Assembly: GCA_003138515.1 (NCBI GenBank) | Contig: PLGG01000046.1 | Span: 78,315 to 142,314, forward strand | Reading direction: 5' to 3' | DNA length: 64,000 nt | Source of the DNA: Acidobacteriaceae bacterium | Lineage (GTDB): Bacteria > Acidobacteriota > Terriglobia > Terriglobales > Acidobacteriaceae | Shown: positions 25,750 to 30,994 of the stretch, piece after piece | Position numbering within the stretch: position 1 is the stretch's first letter | Layout: the number at the start of each line of letters is the position of its first letter | Program-made: the position numbers and the translations under genes | The notes under the pieces: generated by a model | The model's input: only the letters and a program-made list of their open reading frames with translations | Databases searched by the model: none | What the model was told of the DNA's origin: nothing

Positions 25750-26499
25750 ATGCCGCAGACCTGGAATCCTGAATCCTACGGCCGCGATGGTGCATTCGTT
25801 CACGAATTGGCTGGGGGCGTGCTCGAGTGGCTCGCCGCCGAACCTGGCGAGCGCATCCTCGACCTTGGCTGCGGCGACGGACAACTGACGAAACGGATTG
25901 CCGATACCGGCGCCAGCGTCGTCGGCGTCGACGCTTCTCGTCAGATGGTAGCTGCGGCGCGCGCTCGGGGAATAAAGGCCGACAATGGACCCGCCGAGAA
26001 GCTGCCCTACCCCGACCACATCTTCGAAGCTGTCTTTTCCAATGCTGCATTGCACTGGATCCGCGGCCAGGACGAGATGCTCACTCAGGTGCGACGCGTG
26101 CTGCGCCCCGGCGGCCGTTTTGTTGCGGAGATGGGCGGGCACGGAAACATCGCTGCCATACGTGTCGCTTTCTCGGCCGTCGTCGCGCGCCATGGATTTG
26201 CCTCGCTCGGCGATCGAGGCAACTACTATCCCACTGCGGAAACCTACAAACGCCGGCTGGAGCGCCACGGCTTTGCGATTCAAAAACTCATTCTCTTCCC
26301 TCGCCCCACTTTGCTGAATAATGGTGGCATGACCGGGTGGCTGAACACCTTCTACCGCGGCGCCCTCGACTCTCTGCCAGAGCAACTGCGCGAAACTGTC
26401 CTCAAAGAAACCGTGGCCCTGCTCGCTCCGGCCCTGCACGATCACGATGGCCGCTGGACCGCGGATTACGTGCGGCTGCGCTTCATCGCAACCGTTTGA
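25750..26499 (+). CDS. SAM-dependent methyltransferase (class I)
   Basis: A 249-residue class I methyltransferase. Motif I is RILDLGCGDGQLTKRIA near residue 35, the acidic end of strand 2 is VVGVDASRQM, and motif post-I/II is seen in FEAVFSNAALHWI, followed by LRPGGRFVAEMGG. The arrangement resembles trans-aconitate methyltransferases and other small-molecule enzymes. ATG 25750 is chosen because GGGAGA lies 8 bases upstream; the open frame continues to 25606 without a convincing site. The substrate is unknown. Confidence 0.85.
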   Translation: MPQTWNPESYGRDGAFVHELAGGVLEWLAAEPGERILDLGCGDGQLTKRIADTGASVVGVDASRQMVAAARARGIKADNGPAEKLPYPDHIFEAVFSNAALHWIRGQDEMLTQVRRVLRPGGRFVAEMGGHGNIAAIRVAFSAVVARHGFASLGDRGNYYPTAETYKRRLERHGFAIQKLILFPRPTLLNNGGMTGWLNTFYRGALDSLPEQLRETVLKETVALLAPALHDHDGRWTADYVRLRFIATV

Positions 26500-26643
26500 A
26501 ACTCATCCATCCAGCGCGAGCCGGCAACTGTTCGAGTAAGTCACCGTATAAGTTAAAAGTTATTCGCCAATAAATATTTCTTGAAACCCCTTGCATTTCT
26601 TCGGAACTTATGGCACAGTAATCACTGCGTAGGAGAACGCCCG

Positions 26644-26736
26644 ATGATCGTCAAAACGCAAAACTCGATGCGTAGGCTGGGATGGCTCGAACTGAGCTCA
26701 ACCGGCCGCCGGGCGCGGTTTTTCTATCTGCCGTAG
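26644..26736 (+). CDS. Possible 30-residue leader peptide upstream of the Y RNA array
   Basis: ATG 26644 is preceded by AGGAGA with good spacing and opens a 30-codon frame (begins MIVKTQNSMRRLGWLEL, ends ARFFYLP). It is strongly basic and resembles no family I know. It lies 48 bases before the first RNA unit, so it could be a small protein, a leader peptide or chance. A 6-bp inverted repeat (26704-26709 with 26743-26748) spans its 3' end. Confidence 0.3.
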   Translation: MIVKTQNSMRRLGWLELSSTGRRARFFYLP

Positions 26737-26783
26737 TCCCTTGCGGCCAACCTCCTGCGTATCCCGCATAACCGTTGATTCAT

Positions 26784-26851
26784 CCCGAGTGGCGTAGAAG
26801 CCAGCTTCATCGCCTTGACAACGCTACGCTGTCTTCGTCTGTTCCCTCGGG
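26784..26851 (+). ncRNA. Y RNA-like unit 1, minimal hairpin without tRNA-like domain
   Basis: The outer stem is CCCGAG (26784-26789) with CTCGGG (26846-26851). It keeps the array motifs TGGCGTAG after the 5' strand and TGTTCCC before the 3' strand. An inner 9-position stem (26797-26805 with 26828-26836) has one C-T mismatch at the same place as in the next unit. The loop is 22 bases and holds no T-arm or D-arm. At 68 bases it is half the length of the others. It could be a stand-alone Ro ligand or a decayed unit. Confidence 0.5.
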
Positions 26852-26883
26852 GAATGTCGCGCTGAGTTAGTCTCTTCCTTTTC

Positions 26884-26911
26884 TTGTTTTGGCGCCGCGA
26901 TAAGTTATACG
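26884..26911 (+). promoter_or_regulatory. Possible sigma-70-type promoter before the array
   Basis: TTGTTT at 26884-26889 and TATACG at 26906-26911 are separated by 16 bases, about 50 bases before unit 2. This is a weak match and nothing else supports it. Confidence 0.25.
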
Positions 26912-26960
26912 GCGTCATGAGAGGACTTATGTCTCTAAGTACTACTTTGTAAGTCAATTC

Positions 26961-27089
26961 CACCGGTGGTGATGAAACGAGTTACTTCCTGCCACGAAAA
27001 GCAGGGTGAAGGAAACCCTGCAGGAGCGGGCCGTTCCTGGTTCACGCCAGAGGCGGAGCTTCTCAACTCTTTTCGCTTGTTCCCCGGTG
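26961..27089 (+). ncRNA. Y RNA-like unit 2, diverged tRNA-like domain
   Basis: The outer stem is CACCGG (26961-26966) with CCGGTG (27084-27089). The inner stem is GAAACGAGTT (26974-26983) with AACTCTTTTC (27065-27074), ten positions with a single C-T mismatch. The distal part differs from later units: a 7-bp hairpin (27001-27007 with 27015-27021) sits where a variable arm would be, and the T-arm is degenerate (CTGG, loop TTCACG, CCAG at 27037-27050). No clear D-arm is present. The 3' motif GCTTGTTCCCCGG is intact. Confidence 0.68.
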
Positions 27090-27101
27090 ACAACCTCAAC
27101 T

Positions 27102-27116
27102 GACGATCAATTCGTC
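27102..27116 (+). other. Linker mini-hairpin after unit 2
   Basis: A 5-bp stem GACGA/TCGTC with a 5-base loop is followed by an A-rich spacer. The same element recurs after units 3 and 4. Confidence 0.55.
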
Positions 27117-27130
27117 TAAAACCAAAAAAA

Positions 27131-27257
27131 GACCGGTGGCGTAGGGCGCGGTTACTTCGCCTGTTAAGCGGGATACGCGGGTTCGATTCCCGCCCGGAGC
27201 GCGAGTTCCGGTAGTTCAGTGGCAGAACGCCGTTACCGTCCCGCTTGTTCCCCGGTC
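27131..27257 (+). ncRNA. YrlA-type Y RNA, unit 3
   Basis: The outer stem is GACCGG (27131-27136) with CCGGTC (27252-27257). The 5' motif is GGTGGCGTAGG and the inner stem is CGGTTAC/GTTACCG with a U-U mismatch. The tRNA-like domain is complete and circularly permuted: T-arm GCGGG, loop TTCGATT, CCCGC (27177-27193); acceptor-like stem CCGGA/TCCGG (27194-27198 with 27207-27211) closed by an 8-base loop; TA at 27212-27213, matching U8-A9 of tRNA; and D-arm GTTC AGTGGCA GAAC (27214-27228), with the GG needed for elbow contacts. Confidence 0.88.
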
Positions 27258-27269
27258 GCAACTTCAATT

Positions 27270-27284
27270 GGCGATCGACTCGTC
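27270..27284 (+). other. Linker mini-hairpin after unit 3
   Basis: GGCGA/TCGTC, five pairs including one G-U, with a 5-base loop. It differs in sequence from its counterparts but keeps pairing. Confidence 0.55.
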
Positions 27285-27301
27285 CAAAACCAAAAGAAAC
27301 C

Positions 27302-27433
27302 GGCCGGTGGTGTAGGCAACGGATACTTCGAGAGCGGAGAATGCGGGTTCGAATCCCGCCGCGATTGGCGCAACCAGTCGCGTGGTCTAACGGCAGGACA
27401 TCCGATAATTCTGCTGCCGCTTGTTCCCCGGTC
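27302..27433 (+). ncRNA. YrlA-type Y RNA, unit 4
   Basis: The outer stem is GGCCGG (27302-27307) with CCGGTC (27428-27433), including one G-U pair. The 5' motif is GGTGGTGTAGG and the inner pairing is CGGAT/ATCCG. The T-arm is at 27343-27359 (GCGGG, TTCGAAT, CCCGC). The acceptor-like hairpin is unusually long, nine pairs with a CGCA loop (CGCGATTGG with CCAGTCGCG). The bases TG then precede a D-arm GTCT AACGGCA GGAC (27385-27399), again with GG. About 12 extra bases lie on the 3' side between the inner stem and the CCGCTTGTTCCCC motif. Confidence 0.87.
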
Positions 27434-27445
27434 ACAACGTCAACT

Positions 27446-27460
27446 GACGAGGCACTCGTC
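27446..27460 (+). other. Linker mini-hairpin after unit 4
   Basis: GACGA/TCGTC with a 5-base GC-richer loop, at the same distance after the unit as its counterparts. Confidence 0.55.
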
Positions 27461-27477
27461 CAAAACCAGGAAAGAAC

Positions 27478-27615
27478 GGCCGGTGGTGGTCGCAACGGAT
27501 ACTTCGACGCTTCCCCAAGGGGAGGCAGCGGGTTCGAATCCCGCCCGGAGCCGAAAGGCTTCAGAGCTCAAACGGTGAGCACCGAGAGCAACACCGTTGC
27601 ATTTGTTCCCCGGCC
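27478..27615 (+). ncRNA. YrlA-type Y RNA, unit 5
   Basis: The outer stem is GGCCGG (27478-27483) with CCGGCC (27610-27615). The inner stem is GCAACGG/CCGTTGC, fully paired. A small hairpin (TTCCCC/GGGGA) stands where a tRNA variable arm would be. The T-arm is at 27528-27544 (GCGGG, TTCGAAT, CCCGC). The acceptor-like part folds as GAGCC, loop GAAA, GGCTT. The D-arm is GCTC AAACGGT GAGC. The GTAG part of the 5' motif is replaced by GTGGTC. Confidence 0.85.
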
Positions 27616-27627
27616 AGAGTTTTTTGC

Positions 27628-27644
27628 GGACAATATTCTCGTCC
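27628..27644 (+). other. Linker mini-hairpin after unit 5
   Basis: GGAC/GTCC, four pairs with a 9-base loop, followed by the same CAAAAC spacer. This is a weaker version of the linker element. Confidence 0.4.
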
Positions 27645-27659
27645 AAAACAAGGAAAAAC

Positions 27660-27794
27660 GGCCGGTGGCGTAGGTTGCGGTTACTTCGCCTGATACGTCG
27701 GAGGCGCGGGTTCGATTCTCGCGGCGAGCTGCGAGGCTCGAAAGCTCTGTGGTCAGAGCGCCGCAAAAAGTCCGCCATCGCTTGTTCCCCGGCC
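27660..27794 (+). ncRNA. YrlA-type Y RNA, unit 6
   Basis: The outer stem is GGCCGG (27660-27665) with CCGGCC (27789-27794). The 5' motif is GGTGGCGTAGG and the inner stem is TTGCGG/CCGCAA. The T-arm is at 27706-27722, with one G-U pair in the stem (GCGGG, TTCGATT, CTCGC). The acceptor-like hairpin is CGAGC/GCTCG. The D-arm is GCTC TGTGGTCA GAGC. About 15 extra bases separate the inner stem from the 3' motif CGCTTGTTCCCC. Confidence 0.86.
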
Positions 27795-27809
27795 AGTAAG
27801 TTTGCACTG

Positions 27810-27827
27810 CGCGCATTTTGAAGCGCG
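27810..27827 (+). other. Linker hairpin after unit 6, unrelated sequence
   Basis: CGCGC (27810-27814) pairs with GCGCG (27823-27827) across an 8-base loop. It occupies the linker position of the GACGA-type mini-hairpins but has a different sequence. Confidence 0.45.
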
Positions 27828-27845
27828 TGACTCAAAAACCACTTT

Positions 27846-27959
27846 GACCGGTGGTGTTGGCAACGGTTCCATCAATGGGTTGCGGGTTCGAGTCCCGCCG
27901 TTGGCGCATGCCGCGTAGCTCAATGGCAGAGCAATACCGTCGCCGCTTGTTCCCCGGTC
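27846..27959 (+). ncRNA. YrlA-type Y RNA, unit 7
   Basis: The outer stem is GACCGG (27846-27851) with CCGGTC (27954-27959). The inner stem is GGCAACGGT/ACCGTCGCC with one A-C mismatch. UACUUC is replaced by UUCCAUC. The T-arm is at 27882-27898 (GCGGG, TTCGAGT, CCCGC). A short acceptor-like stem is closed by a GCAT loop, then TA, then D-arm GCTC AATGGCA GAGC (27918-27932). At 114 bases it is the shortest unit with a full tRNA-like domain. Confidence 0.86.
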
Positions 27960-27998
27960 ATCAACTTCCGGATTACCCGGATTAGAAACGAATGTGTC

Positions 27999-28343
27999 AT
28001 GAGCAAAGTAAACGTCAAGAACGGCTCGCAGTTCAGCAACCGACATCTCTGCCGAAGCTGCAGAAATGGCCAGGTTACGACCGGCTATCGCGAATCCGAT
28101 GTCTGGGTCATCTGCACCAACTCAAGTCCGGCAAGAATGGTTCCGTTTCCGGTCGAAGAATGCACCGATTTCTGGGACCGCAACCGGCCGAACTGGGATC
28201 AGATGGAAGATCTGGCGATCAGTTTCAGCGAAACCCGCACGAGGCCGATCCGCGGCTTCGCCGGGACCGGTTTCTCACAGTTCCCCGCAGCCGCCGATGG
28301 CGACGACGAGGACAAACAAGACGAGGCAGCGATCACTCGCTGA
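27999..28343 (+). CDS. Small Cys-rich protein encoded inside the Y RNA array
   Basis: A 114-residue protein lying between units 7 and 8. Four Cys residues are arranged as a CRSC knuckle near residue 18-21 (RHLCRSCRNGQV), one in VWVICTNSSP and one in PVEECTDFWD, a pattern that could bind one metal ion as a zinc-ribbon-like module. The middle carries FSETRTRPIRGFAGTGFS and the C-terminus is acidic (DGDDEDKQDEAA). No strong ribosome site precedes ATG 27999. I do not recognise the family. Its place between RNA units, on the same strand and before rsr, suggests it belongs to the same transcript and might act on these RNAs or on Ro; that is inference. Confidence 0.68.
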   Translation: MSKVNVKNGSQFSNRHLCRSCRNGQVTTGYRESDVWVICTNSSPARMVPFPVEECTDFWDRNRPNWDQMEDLAISFSETRTRPIRGFAGTGFSQFPAAADGDDEDKQDEAAITR

Positions 28344-28368
28344 CCTCAAACCAAAACCAGAATGAACC

Positions 28369-28504
28369 CGCCGGTGGCGCAGGGCACGGATACTTCGGGT
28401 AGAGCACCGCGAAAGCGAAGGTCACAAGTTCGAATCTTGTCGCCATCCAACAATGGCTGGCGTAGCTCAGAGCAACACCTTCCGCGCACGAATATTCCCC
28501 GGCG
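28369..28504 (+). ncRNA. YrlA-like Y RNA, unit 8, in the rsr leader
   Basis: The outer stem is CGCCGG (28369-28374) with CCGGCG (28499-28504); both outer pairs are changed relative to other units and remain complementary. The inner stem is GCACGGA/TCCGCGC with one A-C mismatch. A variable-arm-like hairpin ACCGC/GCGAAGGT precedes a T-arm whose five stem pairs are all replaced (ACAAG, TTCGAAT, CTTGT, 28424-28440). The acceptor-like stem is CGCCA/TGGCG, then TA. The D-arm is truncated to GCTCAGAGC and lacks GG. The unit ends 36 bases before the rsr ATG. Confidence 0.78.
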
Positions 28505-28539: not shown

Positions 28540-29907
28540 ATGCGCCTGAACATCTTCAAGCCCAAGCCGCGTCCGCGCACTCACGAGGGAGCTCGGGCCA
28601 GCGTCATCACTGCCGAGCAGGCCCTGCGCCGCTCTGTCCTCTCCTGCATGTTGTGGGAGGGCGAGTTTTACGAGGACGGCGTGCAGATCGCCGGCCGCAT
28701 TCATGAGCTGATCCCGCAGGTCGACGGCGAAAAGGTGGCCGCGCTGGCCGTCGAAGCTCGCGAACGTATGAAGCTGCGTCACGCCCCGCTTCTGCTCGTT
28801 CGCGAGATGGCGCGTCATGCTACGCATCGCGGCCTGGTGGCCGACACGCTCGCGCGCGTCATTCAGCGCGCCGACGAGCTCAGCGAATTCGTCGCCATCT
28901 ACTGGGCCGGCGGGCGTCAGCCGCTCTCCGCGCAGGTCAAGAAGGGCCTGGCCACCGCGTTCGGCAAGTTCGACGAGTACGCGCTGGCCAAGTACGACCG
29001 CGCCGGCGCTGTTCGCCTTCGCGACGTGCTCTTCCTCTGCCATGCGCGCCCCGCCGATGAGGCGCAGGCCGCATTGTGGAAGCGCCTGGTCGATAACCAG
29101 CTTGCCACGCCCGACACCTGGGAGGTTGCGCTTTCTGCAACCGGTCGCGGTGAGGATGCCGAAGGAAAGCGGGAAGTCGCCAAGCGCGAAGTGTGGGAGC
29201 GCCTGCTCGCCGATCGCAAGCTCGGCGCGTTGGCTCTCTTGCGCAACTTGCGCAACCTGCATCAGGCCGGCGTGACCGAAGAGCTGGTGCTGGCCGCGCT
29301 CGCTGAAATGAGGACGGACCGGGTTCTTCCCTTCCGTTTTCTAGCCGCCGCGCGTTCGGCTCCGCAGTGGGAGCAGCCTCTCGAGTTTGCCATGTTCCGT
29401 TCGCTCGAAGGCCGCGCATCCACTCTGCGCGGTCACACCGTGCTGCTGGTCGACGTCTCCGGCTCCATGGAGGCGCCGCTGTCGCGCCGTTCCGAGATGC
29501 GCCGGACTGACGCTGCTTACGGCCTGGCGATCCTGCTGCGCGAAATCGCCGAGAAGGTCACCATCTACACGTTCTCCGATGAAGCAAAGCTGGTGCCGTC
29601 GCGCCGTGGCATGGCGCTACGCGACGCGCTCGACGCGAGCCAGCCGCACTCGGGAACGTACCTCGGCAAGGCGCTGAGCCATGTCGAGGCCGAAAACCGG
29701 GCCGGCTGCGACCGCCTCATCGTCATCACCGATGAGCAGTCGCACGACAGCGTCCCCGCGCCGCGCGGCAAGGGCTACGTGATCAACGTGGCTTCCAACC
29801 GCAACGGCGTCGGCTACGGCCCGTGGACTCACGTCGACGGCTGGAGCGAAGCGGTGGTCGACTACATCGCCGAGCTCGAAGCCAGCGTCGGCACGCCGGG
29901 CGTGTAA
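28540..29907 (+). CDS. rsr: Ro60 ortholog Rsr (TROVE and vWA domains)
   Basis: A 455-residue bacterial Ro protein. Residues about 20-290 are the helical-repeat TROVE ring that binds single-stranded 3' ends and Y RNA (EFVAIYWAGGRQPLSAQVKKG, YALAKYDR, RDVLFLCHARP, LLRNLRN). Residues about 298-450 are a vWA domain with an intact MIDAS: D305, S307, S309 in DVSGSM, T373 in GTYLGKA and D398 in ITDEQSHD. The start is ATG 28540, with AAAGGAGG six bases upstream; a longer frame from 28453 would run through RNA unit 8. In Deinococcus and Salmonella, Rsr with Y RNA works with RNases or RNA repair. No rtcB, rtcA or pnp gene lies nearby. Confidence 0.95.
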   Translation: MRLNIFKPKPRPRTHEGARASVITAEQALRRSVLSCMLWEGEFYEDGVQIAGRIHELIPQVDGEKVAALAVEARERMKLRHAPLLLVREMARHATHRGLVADTLARVIQRADELSEFVAIYWAGGRQPLSAQVKKGLATAFGKFDEYALAKYDRAGAVRLRDVLFLCHARPADEAQAALWKRLVDNQLATPDTWEVALSATGRGEDAEGKREVAKREVWERLLADRKLGALALLRNLRNLHQAGVTEELVLAALAEMRTDRVLPFRFLAAARSAPQWEQPLEFAMFRSLEGRASTLRGHTVLLVDVSGSMEAPLSRRSEMRRTDAAYGLAILLREIAEKVTIYTFSDEAKLVPSRRGMALRDALDASQPHSGTYLGKALSHVEAENRAGCDRLIVITDEQSHDSVPAPRGKGYVINVASNRNGVGYGPWTHVDGWSEAVVDYIAELEASVGTPGV

Positions 29908-29992: not shown

Positions 29993-30682
29993 TCAGTCCG
30001 CCGCCAGCAATTTCGTCCGGAAGAATAATCCGGCAGCAATTCCGCCCAGGCTGGGAAACACCAGGAACAGCCACAACTGTTTCATTGCCTGACCGCCCAC
30101 AAAAATCGCCGGCCCAAGGCTCCGCGCCGGATTCACGCTCACGCCCGTAATGTGGATGCCGAAGATGTGAATCGCCACCAGCGTAATGCCGATCGCCAGT
30201 CCGGCGAATCCCGCCGGCGCGCTCTTCTGCGTCGACCCCAGAATCACAATCACGAAGATCATGGTTGCAAAGAACTCAAACAGGATTGCAGAAGGCTCGT
30301 TGTATCCGCCCTGATAGCCCGGTCCCCAGCCATCCTGGCCAAGCCCATTCACCGCAAGGCTGTATCCGGTTGAGCCGACCGCAATCATCAGCAGCAGCCC
30401 TGCCGCGAGAATCGCTCCTACAAACTGCCCTACCCAGTAGCCGATCATCTCGCCGAAGCTCATCCGCCCGGCAACCCAGACGCCCAGGCTCACCGCTGGG
30501 TTGATGTGACAACCCGAAATTGGGCCGATTGCATATGCCGCTGCGATCAGACCCAGCCCGAAGGCGAGGGCGATGCCGACAATGCCAACCAATCCTGGCA
30601 CGCCACCGGTAATCACCGCTGTTCCACAGCCAAACAACACCAAAATGAATGTGCCCACCAGTTCCGCAAAGTACTTCTTCAC
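29993..30682 (-). CDS. Aquaporin (MIP family)
   Basis: A 229-residue channel with six membrane segments and two NPA half-helices: HINPAVSLG (N61) and VNPARSLGPA in the second half. The Arg following the second NPA is the selectivity-filter residue, and the preceding residues (HITGVSVNPAR) fit the water-selective AqpZ group better than glycerol facilitators. Translation should start at GTG 30682, where AAGGAGG lies four bases upstream; the longer frame to 30814 is an artefact. It faces rsr tail-to-tail across a terminator. A functional link with Ro is not indicated. Confidence 0.9.
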   Translation of the reverse strand: MKKYFAELVGTFILVLFGCGTAVITGGVPGLVGIVGIALAFGLGLIAAAYAIGPISGCHINPAVSLGVWVAGRMSFGEMIGYWVGQFVGAILAAGLLLMIAVGSTGYSLAVNGLGQDGWGPGYQGGYNEPSAILFEFFATMIFVIVILGSTQKSAPAGFAGLAIGITLVAIHIFGIHITGVSVNPARSLGPAIFVGGQAMKQLWLFLVFPSLGGIAAGLFFRTKLLAAD

Positions 30683-30994
30683 GTTTCCTCCTTGTTCGTG
30701 TCGAGAGAGTTTTTCGCAGGTGCTGCCGTGCATGGCAATCCACGCCAGCCGCGGGCCTGCGCCGAGGGGAATCGAGAACGCGCCCCAATCCATCGCGACA
30801 TTCCATGATGGCAAAATGCGCGTACGCAGTTTTGCAGACGCGCGACGGCTCAGTCAAGAAAAAATCCGCTTACAAAAAAGAGTACTTACTGGGGAAAAAC
30901 AGCGGCCCCTGAGACGGACAATCCGCCAGATCCCTCACCTCGTTCATGTGCAATTCATCGTGTGCCGCGCCGCTCGCCGTGCTAACGTTCAAGC
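30683..30994. other. Intergenic region between divergent genes
   Basis: About 310 bases separate the aquaporin start (minus) from the methyltransferase start (plus). It should hold both promoters. I see no gene, RNA or repeat in it that I can support; an A-rich patch lies near 30850-30900. Confidence 0.5.

Follow-up and report, generated by a model that had tools for sequence, protein, structure and literature searches.

Layout of the rsr locus

The window analysed here is a stretch of 64,000 nucleotides (nt) from an Acidobacteriaceae bacterium (assembly GCA_003138515.1, contig PLGG01000046.1, positions 78,315 to 142,314), and our subject is a row of eight Y RNA-like units, U1 to U8, at positions 26784-28504, which precedes rsr, the gene of a Ro60-like protein. 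All units are on the + strand, like rsr, and U8 ends 35 nt before the rsr start. Common to the units are a 5' end of the form N6-U-GG, a GUGGYG motif, UUCCC shortly before the 3' end, and a terminal CC-N6 that base-pairs with the 5' end of the same unit. When the units were folded singly, the outer stem closed in all eight, and each has a basal stem with a bulge (N6-U-GG / CC-N6). Thus, the initial annotation of this sequence was correct in describing eight units with a common closing stem on the rsr strand, including their outer limits. It had also proposed a period of 170-186 bases. The spacings of the 5' motif of 170, 171, 176, 182, and 186 fit this, but the step from U7 to U8 is 523, as an open reading frame (ORF) of 114 codons (27999-28343, + strand) lies between them. 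This gene, encoding a protein with four cysteines, had been missed, as had a leader ORF before the row and the status of U1 as a conserved short first member. The row and rsr are bounded by a methyltransferase gene, ending at 26499, and by an aquaporin-type gene on the opposite strand (29993-30814).

The spacers at 27093-27129, 27259-27299, and 27435-27475 have in common a YCAAAACC-like stretch and a small hairpin (GACGA...TCGTC type), which together are a candidate cutting signal. A comparable element precedes units 4 and 5 of L094, the nearest relative seen; it is not general among the 11 arrays compared.

The rsr gene (28540-29907, + strand) encodes a protein of 455 amino acids with a TROVE domain (PF05731, 53.3 bits at a cut-off of 23, E 3.5e-14) and a von Willebrand factor A (vWA) domain (VWA_2, 31.4 bits at a cut-off of 27); the match to vWA_Ro60, 26.5 bits, is slightly under the cut-off of 27.7. 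A profile built from 11 relatives matched the solved TROVE proteins 9l5y and 9kop with E 3.7e-50, Xenopus Ro60 with 6.3e-13, human Ro60 with 1.3e-12, and Deinococcus Rsr (2nvo) with 3.1e-8, and spanned 9l5y, 9kop, and 2nvo almost end to end. H168, invariant among the 11 aligned relatives, aligns with H187 of Ro60 (in the alignments with 1yvp and 9nen, with residues matched by counting), and, according to a passage in PMC11277228, the H187S substitution in Ro60 abolishes Y RNA binding. By these domain and structure matches, the gene beside the array is a true Ro60/Rsr homologue, as the initial annotation had said.

Folding and covariation of the units

We built a covariance model, R1, from U3-U8 and searched the window and the rsr loci of 40 relatives (431,603 bases in total, E up to 1), which yielded 129 matches. 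In the alignment of these matches, which was fitted to R1 and is therefore biased towards the structure, 27 out of 28 pairs had changes on both sides, including seven of the eight pairs of the closing stem, and 96.6% of 2,777 cells paired, compared to a mean of 73.9% in shuffled controls and 36.6-57.7% with slid partners. The covariation score was 0.405, against 0.124 for shuffled alignments, and none of 500 shuffles scored as high. Most of this proof comes from the relatives: among U3-U8 alone, double changes were seen at 12 of the 28 predicted pairs, and the RNAalifold covariation term was small (-1.41 kcal/mol). Still, the compensatory stem changes that the initial annotation had noted are borne out, and the model building and the search of related rsr loci that it had suggested have provided covariance support.

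Applied to its own genome, R1 found seven units of the array with E from 2e-23 to 3e-6; two further weak matches (E 0.24 and 0.82) both fell on ordinary tRNA genes. The seven include U2 (26961-27089, + strand), which was not in the training set and scored 46.1 bits (E 3.4e-7) in the search of the window and the relatives. U1 (26784-26851, + strand) was detected only with R2, a model of the short form of about 70 nt, at 66.4 bits, U1 being in its training set. In a MAFFT alignment of 21 short units, 13 out of 16 pairs had double changes and 92.6% of cells paired, compared to 45.3-55.7% with slid partners, the structure tested being taken from the same alignment.

Permuted tRNA modules

The far ends of the units differ. 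U1 and U2 have no tRNA-like domain; U2 forms stacked hairpins. U3 (27131-27257), U4 (27302-27433), U5 (27478-27615), U6 (27660-27794), and U7 (27846-27959), all on the + strand, carry a T arm, then a loop-closed acceptor stem, then a D arm, which is a permuted order for a tRNA. These are the five units in which the initial annotation had recognised the module. U8 (28369-28504, + strand) is a partial case: the T arm and the acceptor stem are present, whereas the D arm is collapsed to a one-base loop and is not usable. Defined as a five-pair stem with at least four pairs and a seven-base TTCRANN loop, the T arm occurs in six of the eight window units (U3-U8) and in 71 out of 143 units of the family, compared to 0.66% of shuffled units. 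First units usually lack it, having it at 4 out of 37 family loci.

Five units match the YrlA model of Rfam (RF02553) below its gathering cut-off, namely, U7 (39.4 bits, E 1.3e-6), U3 (36.6 bits), U4 (24.1 bits), U8 (23.1 bits), and U5 (22.9 bits), while no match was listed for U6. So this search, also suggested by the initial annotation, yielded matches, although none at the cut-off. In other acidobacterial families, the cut-off is passed by one unit each in L120 and L124 and by two units in L123.

ARAGORN found no tRNAs in the window, and the Rfam tRNA model gave 20.1 bits at U8, below the cut-off of 29. In the family, ARAGORN miscalls units as tRNAs in seven places at 6 out of 42 loci, as would be expected if the units act as tRNA mimics. 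Including other families, Y RNA-like units are labelled as tRNAs of varied types at L040, L042, L043, L045, L056, L102, L106, L109, L123, and L124. Since ARAGORN calls such units tRNAs, public genome annotation may hide Y RNAs under this label.

The tRNA likeness is also the basis of the main rival to an adaptor function. The tRNA-like units could be decoys that compete with tRNAs for proteins that bind tRNA, be they modification enzymes, nucleases, or others, with Rsr mainly stabilising the units. In line with this, six of the eight units have the T arm, YrlA is modified by tRNA enzymes according to parts of PMC8394870, and a passage in PMC7790460 has its authors proposing competitive inhibition of an anticodon nuclease. 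However, U1 and U2 have no tRNA module, the first unit lacks the T arm at 33 out of 37 loci, and the feature that all units share is the stem of the Ro type. We consider decoy action unlikely.

We also looked at how the module could have arisen by out-of-register reading of adjacent tRNA genes. Among neighbours at most 20 nt apart at seven loci with tRNA arrays (a part of their tRNAs, L126 and L127 being left out), the acceptors paired at six or more of the seven positions in 4 out of 55 cases, compared to 5.5% of 1,891 other pairs, and this route was rejected.

Unit numbers and conservation in the family

Among 200 genomes of the family, rsr was found in 47, in some only as fragments, the four-cysteine gene in 40, and both in 32. 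Only rsr fragments are seen in L066 (genome G040) and L067-L070, and G040 retains an intact four-cysteine gene. We counted units at 37 loci, the window and 36 relatives, using matches with E up to 1, so that about one false unit is expected. There was one unit at three loci, two at two, three at eight, four at sixteen, five at four, six at two, and eight at two; hence, 34 out of 37 loci have at least two units, with a median of four. Eight is the maximum, reached by the window and by L052, which is itself among the loci where a contig end shortens the count (L051, L065, L035, L052, and L064). All units at all 37 loci are on the rsr strand. L047 shows a single unit, but a longer stretch of its genome (G056) has at least five: in entry L092, four units and the four-cysteine gene are several kb from rsr, and a fifth unit is at rsr. 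In L092, L042 (G028), and L049 (G127), the units and the four-cysteine gene stay together at least 2 kb from rsr.

The nearest relative, Terracidiphilus sp. MAG_BA147 (L094), has an rsr 91% identical to that of the window and six units; Occallatibacter savannae (L095) has five. In 17 arrays, only 1 out of 82 units had its nearest relative within its own array, while 4.2 would be expected by chance. Instead, nearest relatives occupied matching positions: a first unit was nearest to a first unit in 17 out of 17 cases, a last unit to a last one in 14 out of 17, and a middle unit to a middle one in 47 out of 48. In particular, window units 1, 3, 5, and 8 are nearest to units 1, 4, 5, and 6 of L094, while units 2, 4, 6, and 7 are nearest to units in L096, L035, L107, and L096, respectively, with low similarity for unit 2.

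Since the nearest relatives sit at matching places in other genomes, these comparisons indicate that the row is an old set of individually kept RNAs, with some gain and loss. The initial annotation had proposed that this genome expanded the set to eight. It is right that no higher number was seen, but arrays are general in the family, L094 already has six units, and only one unit of 82 is closest to a member of its own array; therefore, a recent expansion in this genome was rejected.

The same data bear on another possibility, namely, that the units are redundant, serve to increase the dose of Y RNA, and differ from each other through drift. The variation of the copy number from one to eight would fit this. 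However, the relatives of first and last units are matched by position, only one unit of 82 is nearest to a member of its own array, and all but one of the 28 pairs are preserved by double changes, which makes mere redundancy improbable. Old members kept in their positions argue for distinct jobs.

The four-cysteine protein gene

The protein encoded between U7 and U8 has 114 amino acids, with cysteines at C18, C21, C39, and C55. Its gene is found near rsr at 32 out of 37 loci, two of these genes being partial and three more than 2 kb away. The protein had no Pfam or NCBIfam match, and the comparison with solved structures gave no match either (best E 0.17); its predicted structure is poor, with a mean predicted local distance difference test (pLDDT) score of 47.8. 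The protein family has 507 database members, and none of the 120 members listed has a Pfam domain.

The four-cysteine gene also occurs where rsr is lacking, in eight genomes of the family (three of these matches being weak) and in seven from other families; tblastn found no rsr, and no Y RNA match around the gene exceeded 15.9 bits. G098, G150, and G168, all from one genus, keep the four-cysteine gene without rsr and Y RNAs, and the leader pattern described below is seen in two of them (L086 and L087). The positions of ORFs around six four-cysteine genes without rsr had no evident shared pattern; this comparison was of positions, and functions were not searched. Given this occurrence without rsr or Y RNAs, the reading of the four-cysteine protein as a fixed subunit of a Ro ribonucleoprotein was rejected.

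Leader and operon organization

Upstream of the first unit, there is a leader with the order TGGCA-type element, Shine-Dalgarno (SD) sequence GTAGGAG, ATG, an ORF of about 30 codons, a stop codon, and a strand with the potential for SD pairing. In the window, all on the + strand, these are the promoter-like element TTATGGCACAGTA at 26608-26620, common to relatives before the first unit and a putative promoter; the SD strand CGTAGGAG at 26628-26635; a 30-codon ORF with predicted translation at 26644-26736; and the pairing strand at 26752-26759, shortly after the leader stop codon. An SD-led ORF of 24-38 codons precedes the first unit in 39 out of 49 entries, or in 37 out of 47 genomes if each is counted once; the best complement of the SD is 93-118 nt past the ATG in 28 of the 37 genomes with this ORF. 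In L059-L063, among rows chosen for pairing, both strands deviate from the others in matching fashion, e.g., CAGAGGAA with TTCCTCTG. A scan with the sigma-70 consensus found no promoters (0.5 in shuffled sequences), and a scan for terminators predicted six, compared to 4.2 in shuffled sequences.

The common strand and the conserved leader before the first unit make it likely that the units, the four-cysteine gene, and rsr form one operon and one transcript. In L038, L043, and L054, the gaps between some units are as short as 5-9 nt and leave no room for promoters of their own; hence, we infer that the units are cut from one precursor.

If the units are on the rsr transcript, they could act only in cis, stabilising or regulating the mRNA of the four-cysteine gene and rsr, with no release as separate RNAs. 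The position of the units before rsr on its strand, probably in the same transcript, and the leader ORF with possible SD pairing ahead of them would agree with this. On the other hand, in L092 four units and the four-cysteine gene lie several kb from rsr, it is not evident what tRNA mimicry and a closed basal stem would be good for in cis, and the known Y RNAs are separate RNAs. A purely cis role is thus quite improbable.

tRNA gene arrays near rsr

Outside the family, we searched 396 acidobacterial genomes for TROVE matches with E up to 0.001 and found them in 16, four being below the Pfam cut-off. We called a tRNA array if ARAGORN placed eight or more tRNAs on the strand of the TROVE match inside the fetched 6-10 kb. 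Such arrays are present at 7 of these 16 rsr loci (G222, G268, G304, G364, G475, G482, and G565), where matches to the Rfam tRNA model support them, and absent from the other nine. Two metagenome-assembled genomes of Bryobacterales likewise have tRNA arrays, L109 (252-4569) with 30 calls, including one on a Y RNA unit, and L110 (573-1535) with 10; the match-derived rsr frame of L109 contains stop codons. Overall, tRNA arrays on the rsr strand beside rsr, mostly with Y RNA matches, were seen in L109, L110, L116, L120, L121, L122, L124, L126, and L127.

In the family itself, we scanned 47 locus entries, among which L033 and L098 represent the same genome. Genuine-looking tRNAs were called at three of them: L033 and L096 have a single one, and L114 has seven. 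The other entries have at most one tRNA besides miscalled units. The seven tRNA genes of L114 (2645-3688) are on the opposite strand, directly before the Y RNA units and rsr.

The tRNA arrays beside rsr in other families, together with the genes just before the units in L114, could mean that the row is a decayed array of tRNA genes and its members tRNA pseudogenes. Yet the permuted modules are enclosed by a stem absent from tRNAs, and the covariation of this closing stem makes decay unlikely; in addition, ARAGORN recognised no tRNA in the window, and the acceptors of neighbouring tRNAs were not enriched in pairing. We regard this origin as extremely improbable.

Among the papers listed by a literature search on Y RNAs of Acidobacteria, multiple bacterial Y RNAs, and tRNA arrays with TROVE/Ro60, none was recognised as dealing with bacterial arrays of this kind, the archaeal study PMC6333295 aside; the published maximum of Y RNAs per genome was outside the reach of this search.

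Proposed function of the array

We propose that the eight Y RNA-like genes form one operon with the four-cysteine gene and rsr and supply Rsr, a ring protein like Ro60, with different RNA adaptors, and we estimate the probability of this reading at about 75%. It builds on the sequence itself, covariation, synteny, position-wise conservation, and the homology of Rsr. The units, the four-cysteine gene, and rsr would be transcribed together as one precursor, which would then be cut into single RNAs. Rsr is predicted to grip the basal stem of each RNA. The far ends, a short hairpin in U1, stacked hairpins in U2, and a circularly permuted tRNA module in U3-U8, would determine the choice of partner: the tRNA-like ends may bring Rsr to proteins that recognise RNA of tRNA shape, the most plausible one being polynucleotide phosphorylase (PNPase), as in RYPER, while the ends without the module may gate Rsr or reach other partners. 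The leader ORF probably tunes expression through the pairing of its ribosome-binding site with the strand just past its stop codon. According to parts of PMC8394870, YrlA uses its basal stem to hold Rsr and its tRNA-like domain to bind PNPase, and Rsr, YrlA, and PNPase together are a machine degrading structured RNA (passages in PMC8394870 and PMC7790460). PNPase is encoded in the genome studied here.

Several observations weigh against this proposal or some part of it. No window unit reaches the RF02553 gathering cut-off of 69 bits, even the best ones, U7 and U3; therefore, we term the units YrlA-like and not members of RF02553. The modules could not be traced to one host tRNA, an origin rejected because, in U3-U8, the tRNA types that match the T halves best are not those that match the D halves best; here the comparison set was ARAGORN tRNAs from 30 loci, the 30 best of 46 tRNA matches in the own genome. 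Eight units cannot be a requirement, as at some loci no more than one, two, or three are seen. Since some genomes have the four-cysteine protein but neither rsr nor Y RNAs, it is not necessarily part of the complex. As for the leader, in the test made without selection for pairing, SD pairing at single loci beats shuffles (p < 0.05) in only 4 out of 37 genomes, and the consensus fold of 29 leaders, chosen for SD pairing, is weak (-0.71 kcal/mol).

Bacterial Y RNAs have so far been studied where few exist. With a natural set of eight members, one can ask directly if the Y RNAs that serve Ro60 as adaptors are interchangeable or if each has its own partner; given the position-wise conservation, the latter is likely. 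The family, with one to eight units per locus, includes cultured members, Terracidiphilus gabretensis (L098) and Occallatibacter savannae. Moreover, the occurrence of rsr next to tRNA arrays in other acidobacteria suggests tRNA metabolism as a common theme. Going further, and only speculatively, acidobacterial Ro60 might be a multi-headed machine, in which one precursor provides as many as eight Y RNAs in a set order, each preserved for a long time at its own position and for its own partner; taken with the near-complete tRNA arrays joined to rsr in other families of the phylum, Ro and Y RNAs might then be a device for tRNA surveillance and processing, whose tRNA-shaped heads arose next to such arrays.

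Comparison with known systems

The units resemble YrlA (RF02553) in the stem formed by the 5' and 3' ends, in the order of T arm, loop-closed acceptor stem, and D arm, and in the place beside rsr; moreover, U7 and U3 align over all 114 positions of the model. They differ in scoring below the gathering score and in the combination of six units with the T arm and two without it in one array. YrlA is also a substrate of tRNA-modifying enzymes, as stated in a part of PMC8394870.

The rsr-yrlBA-rtcBA operon of Salmonella, as presented in parts of PMC7790460 and PMC8394870, is similar in that Y RNAs and rsr share an operon. Here, however, there are eight units and not two, the units precede rsr, the four-cysteine gene and the leader ORF are added, and RtcB (PF01139) was not found in the genome, which is 97% complete, while 9 out of 14 control genomes had a match. 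Compared to the known operons of Y RNAs and rsr, the window thus has a variant, a probable operon with an ordered, old set of many Y RNA members.

RYPER, the complex of Rsr, a Y RNA, and PNPase in Deinococcus, is comparable through the homology of Rsr to 2nvo and the presence of PNPase in the genome. It has one tether, whereas the array would provide several differing Y RNAs. Finally, according to a part of PMC6333295, a TROVE gene is present in 20 out of 29 archaeal tRNA clusters. The acidobacterial rsr loci outside the family, 7 out of 16 of which have tRNA arrays, are similar to these clusters, while in the family of the window the row before rsr consists of Y RNA-like units and not of tRNA genes.

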